From Amycolatopsis sp. cg9 (GTDB taxonomy: Bacteria > Actinomycetota > Actinomycetes > Mycobacteriales > Pseudonocardiaceae), in the NCBI RefSeq assembly GCF_041346945.1, contig NZ_CP166850.1, positions 3,844,001-3,908,000 of the forward strand: DNA of 64,000 nucleotides. The letters run 5' to 3'. The translations under genes were made by a program, and so were the position numbers. Shown one piece after another: positions 19,176-26,312 of this stretch. Each line of letters starts with the position of its first letter. Within the stretch, counting starts at the first letter, position 1. The notes under the pieces were generated by a model. The model had not been told where the DNA came from. It saw nothing but the letters and a program-made list of their open reading frames with translations, and did not search any database.

Positions 19176-19540
19176 GGGGGTGAACGGTTTCGACTTTGGA
19201 CGTTGATTCAGGAGAAGCGTGCCGGTGCAGGCGAGAGACCACCGTAAGCGTCATCGCAACCAAATAAGCGCCGACTCCAGTCAGCGCGAGTACGCCCTCG
19301 CCGCCTGAGCGAGTGCGTCTCTGTCGGCCCGGGTTCGCCTCCGGCCCGGGTACCGGCATCAGCTAGGAGGCTCAGCGGCAGTCCCGGCCACGGGGAACTG
19401 CCGTGAAGCAAACAGTGGCTGGGCTCGTCACCTCGGCTTGTTCGCGTGACCGAGGGGGCCAAGTAGAGACGTAGCGGACTGCGCACGGAGAAGCCCTGTT
19501 GATACGCCAGAGGACCCGGGTTCAATTCCCGGCACCTCCA
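19176..19540 (+). ncRNA. ssrA: Transfer-messenger RNA (tmRNA)
   Basis: 365 nt. The 5' end GGGGGTGAACGGTTTCGAC pairs with the 3' end CACCTCC to form the tRNA-like acceptor, and the 3' T-arm reads CCGGGTTCAATTCCCGG. CCA is not encoded. The resume codon is at 19270 and the tag ORF (19270-19308) encodes ADSSQREYALAA followed by TGA, close to the mycobacterial ADSHQRDYALAA. It works with SmpB (12761-13243) to release stalled ribosomes and mark the truncated peptide for proteolysis. Confidence 0.97.
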
Positions 19541-19544
19541 CTGC

Positions 19545-20511: not shown

Positions 20512-20745
20512 CTGCTGGCCCCTCCCCGCCTGACACCGGCCAGGATCAGACAGTCTTACTGGGTCCGGGTGGGGCGGACCACCTTCTTGGGCCGACCGGT
20601 GCGGGCCATTGGGCTGGTTGCTGTCGGTGATGGGGCGTGTGCTAATGGGTGTGATGGGGGCCACTTGTGGGTGAAATTTCTGTGAGTGTCATGCTGAGGG
20701 CCCGACCTTGGCTCCGCACCCGTGGGGCTGGAAGTAGGTGGCCAG

Positions 20746-20952
20746 ATGACCTGGGCGCGGCACAGTGGCAGCTCGACTGCCCGTGACGAAGACAGTCGGA
20801 TGGGGGTCCTGCGGGCCGAGGAGGCGGAACGGCTCGCCGCGGAGCACTGTCGGGCTCTCGTTACCGTTGCCGGGCACTCCTCCGATGCTCGGGAGTGCAC
20901 CGAACTGCTGGACATGCTCGGGCTCGACGCCGGGTTGTGGCGGGGGCGGTAG
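20746..20952 (+). CDS. Small conserved actinobacterial protein
   Basis: 68 residues from the ATG at 20746, with AGGTG 5 nt upstream. An alternative start is ATG 20800. The C-terminal block EEAERLAAEHCRALVTVAGH and ECTELLDMLGLDA resembles short conserved proteins of actinobacteria with no known role. It is predicted to be entirely helical. It converges with the GGDEF gene, with only 4 bp between the stop codons. Confidence 0.6.
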   Translation: MTWARHSGSSTARDEDSRMGVLRAEEAERLAAEHCRALVTVAGHSSDARECTELLDMLGLDAGLWRGR

Positions 20953-20956
20953 GCGT

Positions 20957-22240
20957 TCACTTCAGGTCCGCTACGTGGACCACCTTGTTCCGCCCCGTCG
21001 CCTTCGCGTGGTACAGCGCGGTGTCCGCCGCGTCCAGGAGGCGCTGGAGTGACGTTCCCGCCTGCGGGTAGACCGCCGAGCCGATCGACACCGACTGGCC
21101 CGTGATCGACAACTGTCCCACCGGGACGGTCAGGGCGCTGATCGCGCGGCGGATGCGTTCGGCCACCGCGCCGATGTCGGGCTCGGTGATGCCCGGGAGC
21201 ACGACCACGAACTCCTCGCCGCCGAATCGGCCCACCGCGTCTCCGCGGCCGCGGACCGCCGAGATGATCGCCTGGGCCACCGCGCGCAGTACCGCGTCGC
21301 CCGCCAGGTGGCCGTACGTGTCGTTCACCTGCTTGAAGTGGTCCAGGTCCAGCATCAGCAGGCCGAACGTCGAACGCTGGCGGGCCGCGGCCGCCAGGGT
21401 GCGCTCGGCCAGTGCGTGCCAGCCGCTCGTGTTGTACAGGCCCGTTTTCTCGTCGCGGTGGGCCGCCACCTCGAGCTGCTTCACCAAAACCGTGCGGTGC
21501 AGCAGCAACACCGGCGGCAGCGCCAGCAGGACCAGGCCCGGCAACGTCGCCAGCGCCAACGCGTTCAGCGCGCCCAGGCACAGCGTCGCCACTTCCAGGC
21601 CGTTGTCCGACCACGTGCCGAACAGAGCTTCCGGGGACCGGCCGACTTCGTGCCGGGCCGGCAGCACCAGCAGGGCGTTCACCACGAAGAACGTCGCGCC
21701 CGCCGCGGCCAGCGCGAACGTGCCGCCCCAGCCGCGGGGCAGCGCCGTCCGGATGTCGGGGACCACCGCCTGGGCCGCGTAGCACGACAGCAGGATGATG
21801 GCCGCGTTGCTGACCGTCCGCGACGCCGGCACCCGCTGCAGGCGGTACCAGCTGCGGATCGCCAGGTGCGCGTACAACCCGCCCACCAGCACCGCCACGA
21901 GGGGCGGGGGCAGGAGCAGGACACCCGCGAACGTCCAGACCGACGTCATGTTGATGTGCGGCGTTTCCGACACGCGACGGCGGATGCGCTCCACGCGCCG
22001 CCCAGCTTCCGACTGGAGGACGCCGAGCACCAGCAACGTCGTCAGGACGAGCAACGTCCGGCGGTCCACCGCGACCGGGTACGGGCGCAGCGTCAGGGCC
22101 ACCGCGGCCGCCTCGGTCAGCAGGCAGTAGACGACCACGCGGGGGCGTTGGCGCCACAGCGCCCAGTGCCGCGGTGCCACGAGGACGTCACGAAAGCGTG
22201 GTCCGGAGCGCGGGATGCCACCGCCGGTCCGCATACTCAT
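20957..22240 (-). CDS. Membrane GGDEF diguanylate cyclase
   Basis: 427 residues from the ATG at 22240; the ORF is open upstream but unlike this family. The N-terminal half has about seven transmembrane helices. The C-terminal GGDEF domain (about 260-427) carries an intact active-site GGEEF at residues 340-344 and FGLLMLDLDHFKQVNDTYGH, so it should make cyclic di-GMP from GTP. The usual inhibitory RxxD five residues before the motif is replaced by GRGD, which suggests weak product inhibition. No EAL or HD-GYP domain is present. Most likely a stand-alone signalling gene. Confidence 0.92.
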   Translation of the reverse strand: MSMRTGGGIPRSGPRFRDVLVAPRHWALWRQRPRVVVYCLLTEAAAVALTLRPYPVAVDRRTLLVLTTLLVLGVLQSEAGRRVERIRRRVSETPHINMTSVWTFAGVLLLPPPLVAVLVGGLYAHLAIRSWYRLQRVPASRTVSNAAIILLSCYAAQAVVPDIRTALPRGWGGTFALAAAGATFFVVNALLVLPARHEVGRSPEALFGTWSDNGLEVATLCLGALNALALATLPGLVLLALPPVLLLHRTVLVKQLEVAAHRDEKTGLYNTSGWHALAERTLAAAARQRSTFGLLMLDLDHFKQVNDTYGHLAGDAVLRAVAQAIISAVRGRGDAVGRFGGEEFVVVLPGITEPDIGAVAERIRRAISALTVPVGQLSITGQSVSIGSAVYPQAGTSLQRLLDAADTALYHAKATGRNKVVHVADLK

Positions 22241-22319
22241 GGTGTCCGGCCGGTGACGGAGACGGTTCGGCCCGAGGTGGCGAAGGGAGGCGCGCCATGT
22301 GCGGACGCGACAACTGAGG

Positions 22320-23537
22320 TCATGGTCCCGCCAGCCCGGCCCGGCGCCACGCCCTCGCGATCGGCACGGCCACCGCGGCACCCGCCGCGCCGGCCACCGC
22401 GATGGTGTGCGCCGGGCTCAGCACTTCGGCCAGCGCGCCGGCCGCGGCGGCGCCGAGACCCTGCACCGTGATCAAGCCCGCGGAGTTCACGCCCGCGCAC
22501 TGCGCGCGGTGCGCGTCCGGCACCCGGCGCATGAACGACACCGTGCCCTGGATGTTGTAGCCCGTCGCCAGCAGACCGGACGTCGCCAGCAGCAGCACCG
22601 ACAGCACCAGCCCCGGCCGGAAGGCGAACAGCACCAGCGGCAGCCCGGCCGCGATCCCGAGCCGCCCGAGCAGCCGCGTCTGGACGTGCTCCGGGACCCA
22701 CTTGCCGAACACGACGCCGCCGAGCACGCTGCCCGCCGGGTCCGCCGCCATGAGCAGCCCGACCAGCGTCGCGCCCGCGCCGATGCCCGCCGCGTACGGG
22801 GCGGCCAGCGCCTCCGGCACGATGTAGAACCCGGCCAGCCAGTTGAGCGCGACCAGCGTCCGCAGCGCCGGATCGCGCCGGATCAGCCGGATCCCGGCGC
22901 CGGTCGCCGACAGCCAGGCCGGGCGGGCCGCCGCCGCGGCCGCGGCCAGCCGCCGGACACCCGTGACCAGCAGCGCCGCCGAAAGCAGGAACGTCACCGC
23001 GTCCAGCGCCAGTGCCGTGGCCGGCGTCAGCGCCGCGATCAAGACCCCGCCGCCGGCGAACCCGGCCAGCTGCGCGCCCTGGATCGTGACGTTCCGCAGC
23101 GCCATCCCGACCAGGTACCGCTCGCCTTCGAGCACCGACGGCAGCAGCGCCTGCTGCGCCGCCTTGAACGGCCCGCCCAGCGCCGTCAGCACCGCGACCA
23201 GCGTGCACAGCACCCACAGCGGGACGCCGGGGACCGCGATGACGGCGACCAGCGCGGCCCGGGCCAGGTCCGCCGCGACCATCACGTCCCGGCGCGGCCA
23301 GCGGTCGCCCGCGCCGGCCAGCAGAACGCCGCCGAGCAGCGATGGCACGTACGTCAGGGCGTAGGTCAGGCCGGTCAGCGCCGCCGAGCCGGTGCGCTGG
23401 AAGACGAGGACCGCGAGCGCGACGCGGGCGAGCTGGTCGCCGCAGATGGACAGCAGCTCGGCGCTCCACATCGCGCGGAACTCGGCGACGGCGAGCACGG
23501 CGCCGAAGCCCACCTTCGTCACGCGTGCGTCGTCCAT
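22320..23537 (-). CDS. MFS transporter (exporter type)
   Basis: 405 residues with about twelve transmembrane helices. The loop-2 motif GDRWPRRDVMVAADLARA is typical of the MFS_3 / macrolide-efflux-like subgroup. The start used is the ATG at 23537 (MDDARVTKVGF), which has AGGGG upstream; an in-frame GTG at 23579 is possible but overlaps the operator. The substrate is unknown. On the minus strand it follows the IclR gene, with the AbiE-like cassette inserted between them in opposite orientation. Confidence 0.88.
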   Translation of the reverse strand: MDDARVTKVGFGAVLAVAEFRAMWSAELLSICGDQLARVALAVLVFQRTGSAALTGLTYALTYVPSLLGGVLLAGAGDRWPRRDVMVAADLARAALVAVIAVPGVPLWVLCTLVAVLTALGGPFKAAQQALLPSVLEGERYLVGMALRNVTIQGAQLAGFAGGGVLIAALTPATALALDAVTFLLSAALLVTGVRRLAAAAAAARPAWLSATGAGIRLIRRDPALRTLVALNWLAGFYIVPEALAAPYAAGIGAGATLVGLLMAADPAGSVLGGVVFGKWVPEHVQTRLLGRLGIAAGLPLVLFAFRPGLVLSVLLLATSGLLATGYNIQGTVSFMRRVPDAHRAQCAGVNSAGLITVQGLGAAAAGALAEVLSPAHTIAVAGAAGAAVAVPIARAWRRAGLAGP

Positions 23538-23576
23538 CGGTGGCGCCCCTCGAAACCCCTGTTCAGCCAAGGTAAT

Positions 23577-23608
23577 CACCGAACGGAGTGGAATCGAGCC
23601 GTTCGGTG
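23577..23608. promoter_or_regulatory. Inverted repeat operator upstream of MFS gene
   Basis: CACCGAACGG (23577-23586) and CCGTTCGGTG (23599-23608) are perfect 10-bp arms separated by 12 bp, 40 bp upstream of the MFS start. This is a probable repressor site of the transporter; the regulator is not known. Confidence 0.6.
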
Positions 23609-23632
23609 ACAGTTACCCTGTTCGCAGCAGCG

Positions 23633-23661
23633 CGTCAGCCCGGGTGGCCGCCGATGCGGGT
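23633..23661. repeat. 29-bp direct repeat, left copy (duplicated IclR 3' end)
   Basis: A perfect copy of 25528-25556. Read on the minus strand it encodes the last residues TRIGGHPG and the stop codon of the IclR gene, although the rest of that gene is not present here. With the right copy it brackets the AbiE-like pair, 1895 bp apart. Confidence 0.9.
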
Positions 23662-23689
23662 TGCGTGAAGAGCGGGTCTTGTTCAGAAT
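23661..23689 (+). promoter_or_regulatory. Promoter of AbiE-like operon (leaderless)
   Basis: TTGCGT (23661-23666) and CAGAAT (23684-23689) are separated by 17 nt, predicting transcription from about 23695-23696, that is, at the first base of the antitoxin ATG. No ribosome-binding site precedes that ATG. The -35 box begins on the last base of the left direct repeat. Confidence 0.5.
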
Positions 23690-23690
23690 G

Positions 23691-23721
23691 AGAGCATGTT
23701 CAATTCAAATGAACATGCTCT
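23691..23721. promoter_or_regulatory. Autoregulatory operator of AbiE-like operon
   Basis: AGAGCATGTTCA (23691-23702) and TGAACATGCTCT (23710-23721) are perfect 12-bp arms with a 7-bp spacer. They overlap the antitoxin start codon and the predicted transcription start. AbiEi antitoxins are known to repress their operons through inverted repeats at the promoter. Confidence 0.75.
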
Positions 23722-24757
23722 CTCGTTGAACGCGGAGAGCTTTCCGAGTCTGCTGCGCGACCTGCTGGGCGAGCTCGGGCTTCGCAGCGAGTTGCTCGCC
23801 GCGGATGACGCCGAGCGGGAGGGAAACGGGCGAGGAGACGCTGTGCTGCGTCTCGCGACGAGGGCCGGCGCTACCCGGACCTACCTCGTCGAGGTCAGAC
23901 ACCGGTTGACGCCCGAGCTGGCCACCAGTATCAGCGTGCCCGCACGACTCCCGGCGTTACTGGTCGCCAGCTATGTCAGCGAGCCGGTCGCCGAACGGCT
24001 GCGCGCCAGGGGGATCGACTACGTGGACACGGCGGGCAATGCCCACCTCGCGTGGGACGACGTTCTCGTCGACATCCGCGGGCGCCGCAAACCGGCCGTT
24101 CCACGGTCGAGAACGTCGCCAAGCGGGTCCGGCGCCTTCGGCCGGGCGGGTCTCCGCGTCCTGTTCGTCCTGCTCAGCTGGCCGGAAATGGCAGCCCGGC
24201 CCTATCGGGTCCTGGCCGAAGCGAGCGGGGTCTCGCTGGGCACCGTCAAGACGGTGATCGACGAGCTCACCGCAGCCGGCTACCTCTACCAGGGCGCGGA
24301 AGACCGCCGTCTCGCTCGCGGCGGCGAGTTGCTCGACCGCTGGTCGGAGGCGTACTCGATCACCCTGCACGGCTCGCTCGCCCTGGGCGAGTTCTCCGTC
24401 GACGACCTTTCGTGGTGGCCGGATTCGGAATCCGAGATGCGCTCGCTGGGGATCCAGGTGGGGGGCGAGGCCGGAGCCGGTCTCATCGACCCGCACCTGA
24501 GGCCTGCCTCGCTGACGCTCTACGCCGGACAGCTCCCCGCCCGGCTGATCGGCCGGCATCGCATGGCCCAGGTCGAAGGCAGGGGGAACGTCCACATCCG
24601 GAAACGGTTCTGGCACGTGCCCGGTGCCGAGTCCTGGCTGGTGCCCTCCCCGTTGATCTACGCTGACCTGCTGGCCTCGGGGGACCCCCGCCAGCGCGAA
24701 CACGGAGATCGGATCAGGACGATTGATGATCGACTTGTCCGCCTCGGCGGATCCTGA
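23696..24757 (+). CDS. AbiEi-like antitoxin / transcriptional regulator of type IV TA system
   Basis: 353 residues from the ATG at 23696. The N-terminal part (about 1-135) resembles the restriction-endonuclease-like fold of the AbiEi_2 family, with the conserved pattern ARGIDYVDTAGNAHLAWDD and an Glu-rich strand TYLVEVRH. A winged helix-turn-helix follows (about 150-205, with ASGVSLGTVKTVIDEL). The C-terminal region is family-specific. In AbiE systems this protein represses the operon and neutralises the nucleotidyltransferase toxin without direct binding. The palindrome over its start codon fits autorepression. Its 3' end overlaps the toxin gene by 32 bp. The assignment is by pattern recognition, and some members are annotated only as regulators. 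Confidence 0.75.
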   Translation: MFNSNEHALSLNAESFPSLLRDLLGELGLRSELLAADDAEREGNGRGDAVLRLATRAGATRTYLVEVRHRLTPELATSISVPARLPALLVASYVSEPVAERLRARGIDYVDTAGNAHLAWDDVLVDIRGRRKPAVPRSRTSPSGSGAFGRAGLRVLFVLLSWPEMAARPYRVLAEASGVSLGTVKTVIDELTAAGYLYQGAEDRRLARGGELLDRWSEAYSITLHGSLALGEFSVDDLSWWPDSESEMRSLGIQVGGEAGAGLIDPHLRPASLTLYAGQLPARLIGRHRMAQVEGRGNVHIRKRFWHVPGAESWLVPSPLIYADLLASGDPRQREHGDRIRTIDDRLVRLGGS

Positions 24758-25526
24758 AATCCTCCTCGCCGCCAGGACGCTCGCCCGAGTCGACGTGGCG
24801 GCGCGCACGGCCGGACTGGACTACCTGGTGGTCGGCGCGACAGCGCGCACGATCCTGTCGATCGGGCTCGTCGGACGGCCACCCGAGCGAGCCACCCGCG
24901 ACGTCGACATCGCCGTCAGGGTGTGCACCTGGGGTGACTTCGAACGGCTCGTCGGCGAGCTCGACAGGCAGGGCACCAGCGTGCACTCGTTCCTCGTCGA
25001 GGGAGTCGAGGTGGACGTACTGCCCTACGGCGGCATCGAACGGGAAGACCGCACCATCCTCTGGCCCGACGACCATCGGATGAACGTCCGCGGCTTGAGC
25101 GAGGCGGTGGCATCGGCCGAGACCGTCCTGCTGCCCGGAGGGCTCGCCGTCCGAGTCCCTTCGGTGCCCGCGCTGGCTTTGCTCAAACTGCTGACCTGGT
25201 GGGATCGGCACGTGACCGACTCACGTGACGCGATCGACCTCGCCACGATGATCTCCTGGTACTCGACCGGGCCCTACCTGGATCGGCTGTACGAAGAGGA
25301 ACTGGAACTGCTCGGCCGGTACGACTACGACCCGGCTCTCGCCGGTGCTTGGCTCCTGGGCTCGCAGGTGCCCGGGCTCCTCGACGACGAGGGGAAGGAC
25401 GCGCTGCTCCGGATCGTCGAAGACGGTGACGCGCTGGCCAGGCTGGCCAACGACGCGCGGGCACCTCGGGCTCCGGAACTGATGCGGGCGTTGGGGGCCG
25501 GTATTCGCGACGCGGCCCGGTCCTGA
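24726..25526 (+). CDS. AbiEii-like nucleotidyltransferase toxin
   Basis: 266 residues from the ATG at 24726 (a TTG lies one codon earlier). The DNA polymerase beta-like nucleotidyltransferase core is visible: DYLVVGATARTIL followed by TRDVDIAV, with the catalytic Asp59 and Asp61. A third strand, VEVDVLPYG, supplies the last acidic residue. A helical C-terminal part contains LALLKLLTWWDR and RDAIDLATM, typical of AbiEii / DUF1814 proteins. Family members transfer nucleotides (GTP in AbiEii; CTP to tRNA in MenT relatives) and block growth, giving phage abortive infection. It overlaps the antitoxin gene by 32 bp, so co-expression is certain. The RNA target is unknown. Confidence 0.8.
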   Translation: MIDLSASADPEILLAARTLARVDVAARTAGLDYLVVGATARTILSIGLVGRPPERATRDVDIAVRVCTWGDFERLVGELDRQGTSVHSFLVEGVEVDVLPYGGIEREDRTILWPDDHRMNVRGLSEAVASAETVLLPGGLAVRVPSVPALALLKLLTWWDRHVTDSRDAIDLATMISWYSTGPYLDRLYEEELELLGRYDYDPALAGAWLLGSQVPGLLDDEGKDALLRIVEDGDALARLANDARAPRAPELMRALGAGIRDAARS

Positions 25527-25527
25527 C

Positions 25528-25556
25528 CGTCAGCCCGGGTGGCCGCCGATGCGGGT
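25528..25556. repeat. 29-bp direct repeat, right copy (native IclR 3' end)
   Basis: A perfect match to 23633-23661. This copy is part of the intact IclR gene, covering its last eight codons, stop codon and two further bases. Confidence 0.9.
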
Positions 25557-26312
25557 GGTCAGCTCGGCCGCCGTGGCCGCCACTTCCGTGGCCAGGTCCG
25601 GCCACGTCTCCTCGCACGGGTCCGTCTCGCAGTGGTGGCGGACCGTCACGCTGATCGCCGCCAGTGGGCGGGCGCCGTGGTCGAAGACCGGGGTGGCCAC
25701 CGAGGCGAAACCCGCTGTGACGTGGCCGTCTTCGACCGACCAGCCGAGGCGGCGCTCCGCGGTGAGCGTGCGGCGCAGGTCGGCCAGTGTGGCGGGGCCG
25801 CGGCCCGTGCGGAGGACGAACGCCGCCGCCGAGGGGAACAGCGCGCGGACGTGCGGGGCGGGGAGGTGGCGGAGGATCGCCCGGCCGGAGGCCGTCAGCT
25901 GGCCCGGCAGCCGGACGCCGACCTCCGTCACCAGCGTTTCCGGGCGGAGCGGGCGCTCCTTGATCAGGTACAGCGACTCATTGCCGTGCAGCACGCCCAG
26001 GTGCGCGGTGTGCCCGACGCGGTCGACGAGCTTGCGCAGCAACGGCCCGGCCAGGCGTTCGAGGGGGTCGTGACGCAGGTACGCCGAGCCGAGCTCGAAG
26101 GCCGCGATGCCCAGGCCGTACCGGCGTTCGGCGGGCAGGTGCACGACGAAACCGGCGGCTTCGAGCTCGTTGAGCAGGTGGTACGTCGTCGAGCGGGGGA
26201 GGCCCGCTTCGCGCGCGATCGCCGCCGCCGTCACCGGGCCGGGGCGCGTCGAGAGCAGGCGCAGCACCGCCAGCCCGCGGCGCAGCGCCGGGACCTCGCT
26301 GCTGTCGCCCAC
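25530..26312 (-). CDS. IclR family regulator of histidine utilisation
   Basis: 260 residues from a GTG at 26312. The N-terminal winged helix-turn-helix (about 8-70, with TAAAIAREAGLPRSTTYHLL) and the C-terminal effector domain (about 85-255, with TASGRAILRHLP and FDHGARPLAAISVTV) are both intact. It is divergent from hutH, with a perfect palindrome between them, so it most likely controls the hut operon in response to urocanate or another pathway intermediate. Its last codons form the right direct repeat of the AbiE-like cassette; the gene itself is unbroken. Confidence 0.9.
   Translation of the reverse strand: MGDSSEVPALRRGLAVLRLLSTRPGPVTAAAIAREAGLPRSTTYHLLNELEAAGFVVHLPAERRYGLGIAAFELGSAYLRHDPLERLAGPLLRKLVDRVGHTAHLGVLHGNESLYLIKERPLRPETLVTEVGVRLPGQLTASGRAILRHLPAPHVRALFPSAAAFVLRTGRGPATLADLRRTLTAERRLGWSVEDGHVTAGFASVATPVFDHGARPLAAISVTVRHHCETDPCEETWPDLATEVAATAAELTTRIGGHPG

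Follow-up and report, generated by a model that had tools for sequence, protein, structure and literature searches.

AbiE systems of the COG4861–COG4849 branch, described as type IV toxin–antitoxin systems (PMC3985639), have a regulator gene upstream of one for a DUF1814 nucleotidyltransferase, with nucleotidyltransferase motifs II, III, and IV in the latter and inverted repeats at the promoter. Short direct repeats bordering DNA that can be present or absent have been described in other settings. In Mycobacterium smegmatis, the DNA between 38-bp direct repeats (about 1 kb) is deleted precisely and independently of RecA, NHEJ, and SSA (PMC3519483), and in E. coli, S. aureus, and S. pyogenes, short direct repeats flank 10–18% of small variable segments, which occur as occupied and empty alleles and have no mobile-element enzyme (PMC2884548). 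Clusters of the T6SS, in which effector–immunity genes of Vibrio are affected, show a homologous anchor on one side, an illegitimate joint on the other, and a duplicated gene tail (PMC5361080). Among the matches listed in a literature search for AbiE in Amycolatopsis, titles and abstract openings held nothing on the unit described here, and a search for tmRNA/ssrA integration or genomic islands in this genus found none.

The window, which is the whole stretch of 64,000 nucleotides from Amycolatopsis sp. cg9 that was analysed, contains an AbiE-like pair between two direct repeats that are identical at 29 of 29 positions and lie 1895 nt apart from start to start. The features of the locus are as follows.

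19176..19541, plus strand: tmRNA gene ssrA (ARAGORN; tag peptide ADSSQREYALAA), left border of the AbiE interval across the genus
20722..20952, plus strand: small conserved ORF of 76 aa, termed c15 (gene call; synteny marker in tblastn searches)
20957..22381, minus strand: GGDEF (diguanylate cyclase domain) gene (TIGR00254, 161 bits)
22320..23579, minus strand: MFS transporter gene (PF07690, 57 bits), neighbour of iclR in empty-site genomes
23633..23661, no strand: left 29-bp repeat, an orphan iclR 3' end whose last 4–7 bases are native to AbiE promoters in relatives
23661..23689, plus strand: predicted promoter (-35 TTGCGT at 23661–23666, 17-nt spacer, -10 CAGAAT at 23684–23689)
23681..23731, no strand: predicted operator, a nested inverted repeat over the -10 region and the antitoxin start codon (25-nt arms, 80% complementary)
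23696..24757, plus strand: AbiEi-like antitoxin/regulator, 353 aa (PF09952, 91 bits, 1.1e-25, cut-off 21)
24726..25526, plus strand: AbiEii-like nucleotidyltransferase, putative toxin, 266 aa (PF08843, 29.1 bits, curated cut-off 22.5)
25528..25556, no strand: right 29-bp repeat, the native iclR 3' end
25530..26312, minus strand: intact iclR-family regulator gene (PF01614 and PF09339)

The original prediction was of a two-gene AbiE-like cassette inserted between repeats at the end of an iclR gene, and this layout was confirmed in each of its parts. The right repeat consists of the last eight codons and the stop of the iclR ORF plus 2 nt, and the left repeat is an orphan copy of the same gene end. 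Between them lie an AbiEi_2 protein and an AbiEii protein, both recognised by profile matches, and no recombinase. The two genes overlap by 32 nt, and the AbiEii and iclR stops converge 3 nt apart. The last base of the left repeat is also the first of the predicted -35 box, and 23 of 24 AbiE loci have TTGC at a constant distance; a leaderless start is predicted for the pair. The inner motif of the predicted operator reads ATGTTCA-N7-TGAACAT in the window (23696–23716). An inner palindrome, ATGTTCA-N7-TGAACA, stands at the start codon in 23 of the 24 loci, as does the outer repeat in 23, across genera, so that inverted repeats which would serve autoregulation, as in AbiE systems, are predicted at this promoter. 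A further inverted repeat at 23576–23609, upstream of the MFS gene (TCACCGAACGG / CCGTTCGGTGA), is operator-like and mostly kept in clade A, the 28 genomes with IclR at least 92% identical.

By its gene order, with an AbiEi-family regulator (PF09952, which we take to be COG4861) upstream of a DUF1814/AbiEii-domain protein in one operon, the pair resembles AbiE. Motifs II (DhD with Arg), III (KLxAaxxR), and IV (+DxxD) are present in AbiEii, the window sequence reading KLLTWWDR (Thr for Ala) and RDAID, and across 60 AbiEii sequences R55, T57, D59, D61, K154, D168, and D171 are invariant and R161 nearly so. Unlike the hG[G/S] of motif I in PMC3985639, the window reads V36-G37-A38, with G37 and A38 invariant in the 60 sequences and a spacing of 20 residues to D59; because motif I is hGA, the pair was filed as AbiE-like rather than classical AbiE. 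PADLOC AbiEii models match the putative toxin only weakly (E 0.003 and 0.042) and no NCBIfam model does so at E 0.01, the AbiEi-like protein matches neither NCBIfam nor PADLOC, and neither protein matched a solved structure by sequence search. In an AlphaFold model, the regulator has an N-terminal alpha/beta region, a winged helix at about 150–200, and the AbiEi_2 domain at 205–341, the N-terminal region being extra in comparison with the COG4861–COG4849 branch (PMC3985639). A nuclease assignment for this region was rejected, the best Foldseek matches having E >0.02 and archaeal repair endonucleases E about 0.05 to 0.06. The MenT nucleotidyltransferase toxins of M. tuberculosis, compared by structure, are only 12–25% identical and have a different antitoxin. 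Taken together, toxin–antitoxin activity of the pair is presumed from its sequence. AbiEii is interrupted or fragmented in G098 (L080), G095 (L081), and G092 (L082), where AbiEi is still open.

The AbiE pair was found at the MFS–iclR border in 5 of the 28 clade A genomes, namely the window genome (G000), G004, G083, G089, and G098. Empty sites had been predicted and do exist: in 19 of the 23 clade A genomes without the pair, the MFS gene lies beside iclR with a single iclR end, which bears out that the pair separates the two genes. The nearest of these, G068 and G073, read left flank, one 29-bp copy, right flank; 7 of the 19 (G016, G022, G024, G072, G075, G091, and G097) contain tens of extra G+C-rich, non-AbiE bases between MFS and iclR. 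Among the remaining four, G035 (L035) has the c15–GGDEF–MFS block in reverse orientation between tmRNA and iclR, and the MFS gene is missing, with other joins beside iclR, in G063 (L098), G085 (L089), and G103 (L103), indicating that this border breaks repeatedly. The site thus combines short terminal direct repeats with an empty allele in related genomes, as in the small variable segments of PMC2884548, from which it differs in two ways: the alleles compared belong to different species of a genus, not to a single species, and the cargo is a whole toxin–antitoxin operon with its promoter.

In a scan of 80 genomes of the genus that tolerated up to 3 mismatches, two copies of the 29-mer were seen only in the window genome and G004, both at the MFS–iclR site, and one copy in 21 further genomes, always coinciding with the iclR end; it was found nowhere else in these genomes, and a reversed control pattern gave 0 matches. 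The repeat is therefore not a dispersed element, and the scan rules out its origin by chance. Only in the window genome and G004 is the left repeat complete among the five carriers, with remnants of 19 bp in G089 and 11 bp plus CGGGT in G098 and nothing recognisable in G083. Both copies in G089 share the variant CACGCC, which is also found in G035; gene conversion, a separate event, or chance would have to account for its presence in both copies.

Relatives of AbiEii (E up to 1e-10) were found in 15 of the 80 genus genomes, and each of the 15 has the pair downstream of the tmRNA gene. Fourteen carriers have iclR further along the contig, and there the pair always stands, in one orientation, between tmRNA and iclR; in G101 the contig ends before iclR. 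The distance from tmRNA to AbiE is 99–311 nt in 9 of the 10 carriers outside clade A and about 16 kb in G100, as against 3.4–4.2 kb in the five clade A carriers. Gene order differs accordingly: c15, which has no Pfam match, lies left of the pair in the window and right of it in non-clade A genomes. The order is tmRNA–AbiE–c15–iclR in the 7 non-clade A carriers where both markers were found (in G100, c15 lies beyond AbiE and tmRNA in another fetched stretch), whereas all five clade A carriers have tmRNA–c15–GGDEF–MFS–AbiE–iclR, a contrast that one change of place explains. In the wider family, the pair was found in 24 of 390 genomes, 9 of them outside the genus at 56–60% identity. ARAGORN found no ordinary tmRNA in the fetched stretches of these 9 loci, the one call, in L114, being doubtful with an atypical tag. 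The tmRNA 3' end was also considered as an attachment repeat and rejected, because the fetched stretches hold no second copy of its 24-nt end, exact or with 4 mismatches; one copy of the last 14 nt with 1 mismatch in L091 was taken as chance. Elsewhere in the genus, the tmRNA–iclR interval of G014 (L041:5805–9047) contains matches to NsnA and NsnC (411 and 326 bits) and that of G030 (L045:3220–8686) matches to MzaB, MzaC, and MzaD (88, 224, and 40 bits), and the interval may be a defence hot spot. A Pfam scan of 20 interval or border proteins of this region identified no integrase.

Phylogenetic trees of AbiEi and AbiEii (both with 7 of the 9 non-genus loci, the latter without the fragments from G092 and G095) follow the genus groups, and the five clade A cassettes form one clade, with support of 98/98 for AbiEi and 94/97 for AbiEii. 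Mapped onto the right-flank iclR–hutH tree, presence of the pair takes 5 parsimony changes, no fewer than with shuffled labels (mean 4.7), and on the left-flank GGDEF–MFS tree, which covers 23 of the 28 genomes, it takes 4. A single basal gain would need 13 losses on the best tree or 11 on the left-flank tree. Plain parsimony prefers gains over losses; losses are preferred here because the cassettes are old and monophyletic.

We consider it moderately probable that an old, tmRNA-linked AbiE-like pair moved once to a place beside iclR, was inherited vertically, and has often been lost through the repeat. An AbiE-like operon would have resided for long in the variable tmRNA–iclR interval of Amycolatopsis, and in the ancestor of the window's subgroup a single move by illegitimate recombination would have carried it from just downstream of tmRNA to the MFS–iclR border. 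The left join may have formed where the iclR 3' end shares a short microhomology with the AbiE promoter (GGGT to TGCGGGT), the right side presumably kept or rejoined iclR, and a second copy of the iclR tail left behind would account for the whole 29-bp repeat with no need of a dedicated recombinase. In the 10 other genus carriers, the native AbiE promoter before the -35 box contains TGCGGGTTGCG in 3, GCGGGTTGCG in 4, including those 3, and GGGTTGC in 8, including those 4; GGGTTGC is absent from the promoter at all 9 non-genus loci. Since these promoter bases are native in relatives, both sequences joined here would have contributed the end of the repeat, which suggests a microhomology junction at the left join; the repeat would then be 22–25 bases of duplicated iclR tail plus the shared bases. 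Two points weigh against this, the absence of GGGTTGC at the 9 non-genus loci and the fact that matches of 4 nt are not rare where DNA is rich in G+C; against the move itself it counts that no genome was seen in which AbiEii abuts iclR without the MFS gene.

The same junction could have arisen with the pair standing still, if c15–GGDEF–MFS and an iclR tail had been imported by homology-facilitated illegitimate recombination, with the homologous end at tmRNA and the illegitimate end at the AbiE promoter, thereby pushing the pair away from tmRNA. One illegitimate joint would suffice, and it is the one observed, with the orphan tail marking where the imported DNA ends; after such events at T6SS immunity genes, orphan 3' pieces are known (PMC5361080), the Amycolatopsis locus having a toxin–antitoxin pair and a regulator tail in place of the Vibrio effector–immunity genes. 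For such an import, however, AbiEii must have stood directly next to iclR in an ancestor, and in the 7 other carriers with both markers c15 separates the two, which makes it improbable; we take the direction to have been relocation rather than import of MFS-side DNA. The idea with which the original prediction ended, that the unit is a mobile cassette with the 29-bp repeat as its attachment site at the iclR end and a tyrosine or serine recombinase acting in trans, was not supported. The empty sites are precise, the repeat regenerates the gene end as in integrase-driven islands (the full repeat being present in 2 of the 5 carriers), and the window genome has 12 matches to PF00589 and a single match to PF00239, the two families searched. 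All of these matches lie at a distance of more than 800 kb or on another contig, the second, so that no own or linked recombinase of these families was found. The pair is single-copy in the window genome, within the genus its interval (15 of 15 carriers) and its orientation do not vary, its gene trees follow the genus groups, and no other cargo bounded by the iclR-end repeat was found in 20 iclR neighbourhoods or in the 80 genomes (up to 3 mismatches). As the functional unit starts at its -35 box and ends at its stop, arm sites for a recombinase could not be fitted in beyond the repeat. A trans-acting enzyme is unneeded, and we regard mobility of this kind as very improbable.

Homologous recombination in the MFS and iclR flanks offers another route, by which occupied and empty alleles would have been swapped and the repeat would be a fossil of the first insertion with no present role. 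Presence of the pair is scattered, each carrier having an empty sister; the flanks are 80–97% alike, enough for exchange; and the left- and right-flank trees disagree on the placement of the window genome. The G089 cassette has diverged more than its flanks would predict. Nonetheless, the five cassettes branch broadly like their hosts, and cassette dS exceeds mean flank dS (MFS, GGDEF, iclR, and hutH, means computed by hand) in 10 of 10 pairs, at 1.2 to 2.4 times the mean. Recent spread among the five carriers was therefore ruled out and recent exchange among them is unlikely, although the higher cassette dS could instead reflect weaker codon constraint. Overall, allele exchange appears a somewhat unlikely explanation of the distribution. 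As a separate observation, AbiEii of G089 (L075) is 74% identical to that of the window, as distant as those of other groups despite the close flanks, a possible allele replacement.

To return to a single relocation, the operon would afterwards have been inherited vertically and lost many times. Where the repeat was intact, slippage-type deletion between its copies would remove the promoter and both genes and restore a clean MFS–iclR junction, and the product would be identical to a site that was never occupied. The deletions in M. smegmatis (PMC3519483) likewise remove the DNA between direct repeats in an actinobacterium; they were seen in an engineered construct, whereas the Amycolatopsis case is a natural locus with 29 bp over 1.9 kb. 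Because the left repeat is damaged or unrecognisable in G089, G098, and G083, repeat-mediated loss is not demonstrable in their relatives. A bolder and rather doubtful extension is that the iclR-tail duplicate is a standing release switch, kept identical by gene conversion, through which the whole addictive operon, with promoter, antitoxin, and toxin, is discarded in one scarless step. If true, it would account for a dozen or more clean losses in the 28 relatives and for the persistence of the module chiefly in carriers with a decayed repeat (3 of 5) or a broken toxin (1 of 5, G098).

The unit is a further member of the AbiE-like toxin–antitoxin pairs, at a repeat-flanked variable site. With occupied and empty alleles that are exact to the nucleotide, it provides a clean natural case in which a toxin–antitoxin operon shifts its place and is lost without a mobile-element enzyme, and it cautions that a repeat-bounded defence unit is not always a mobile cassette. 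If the repeat drives the loss, one-step riddance of an addiction module becomes testable.
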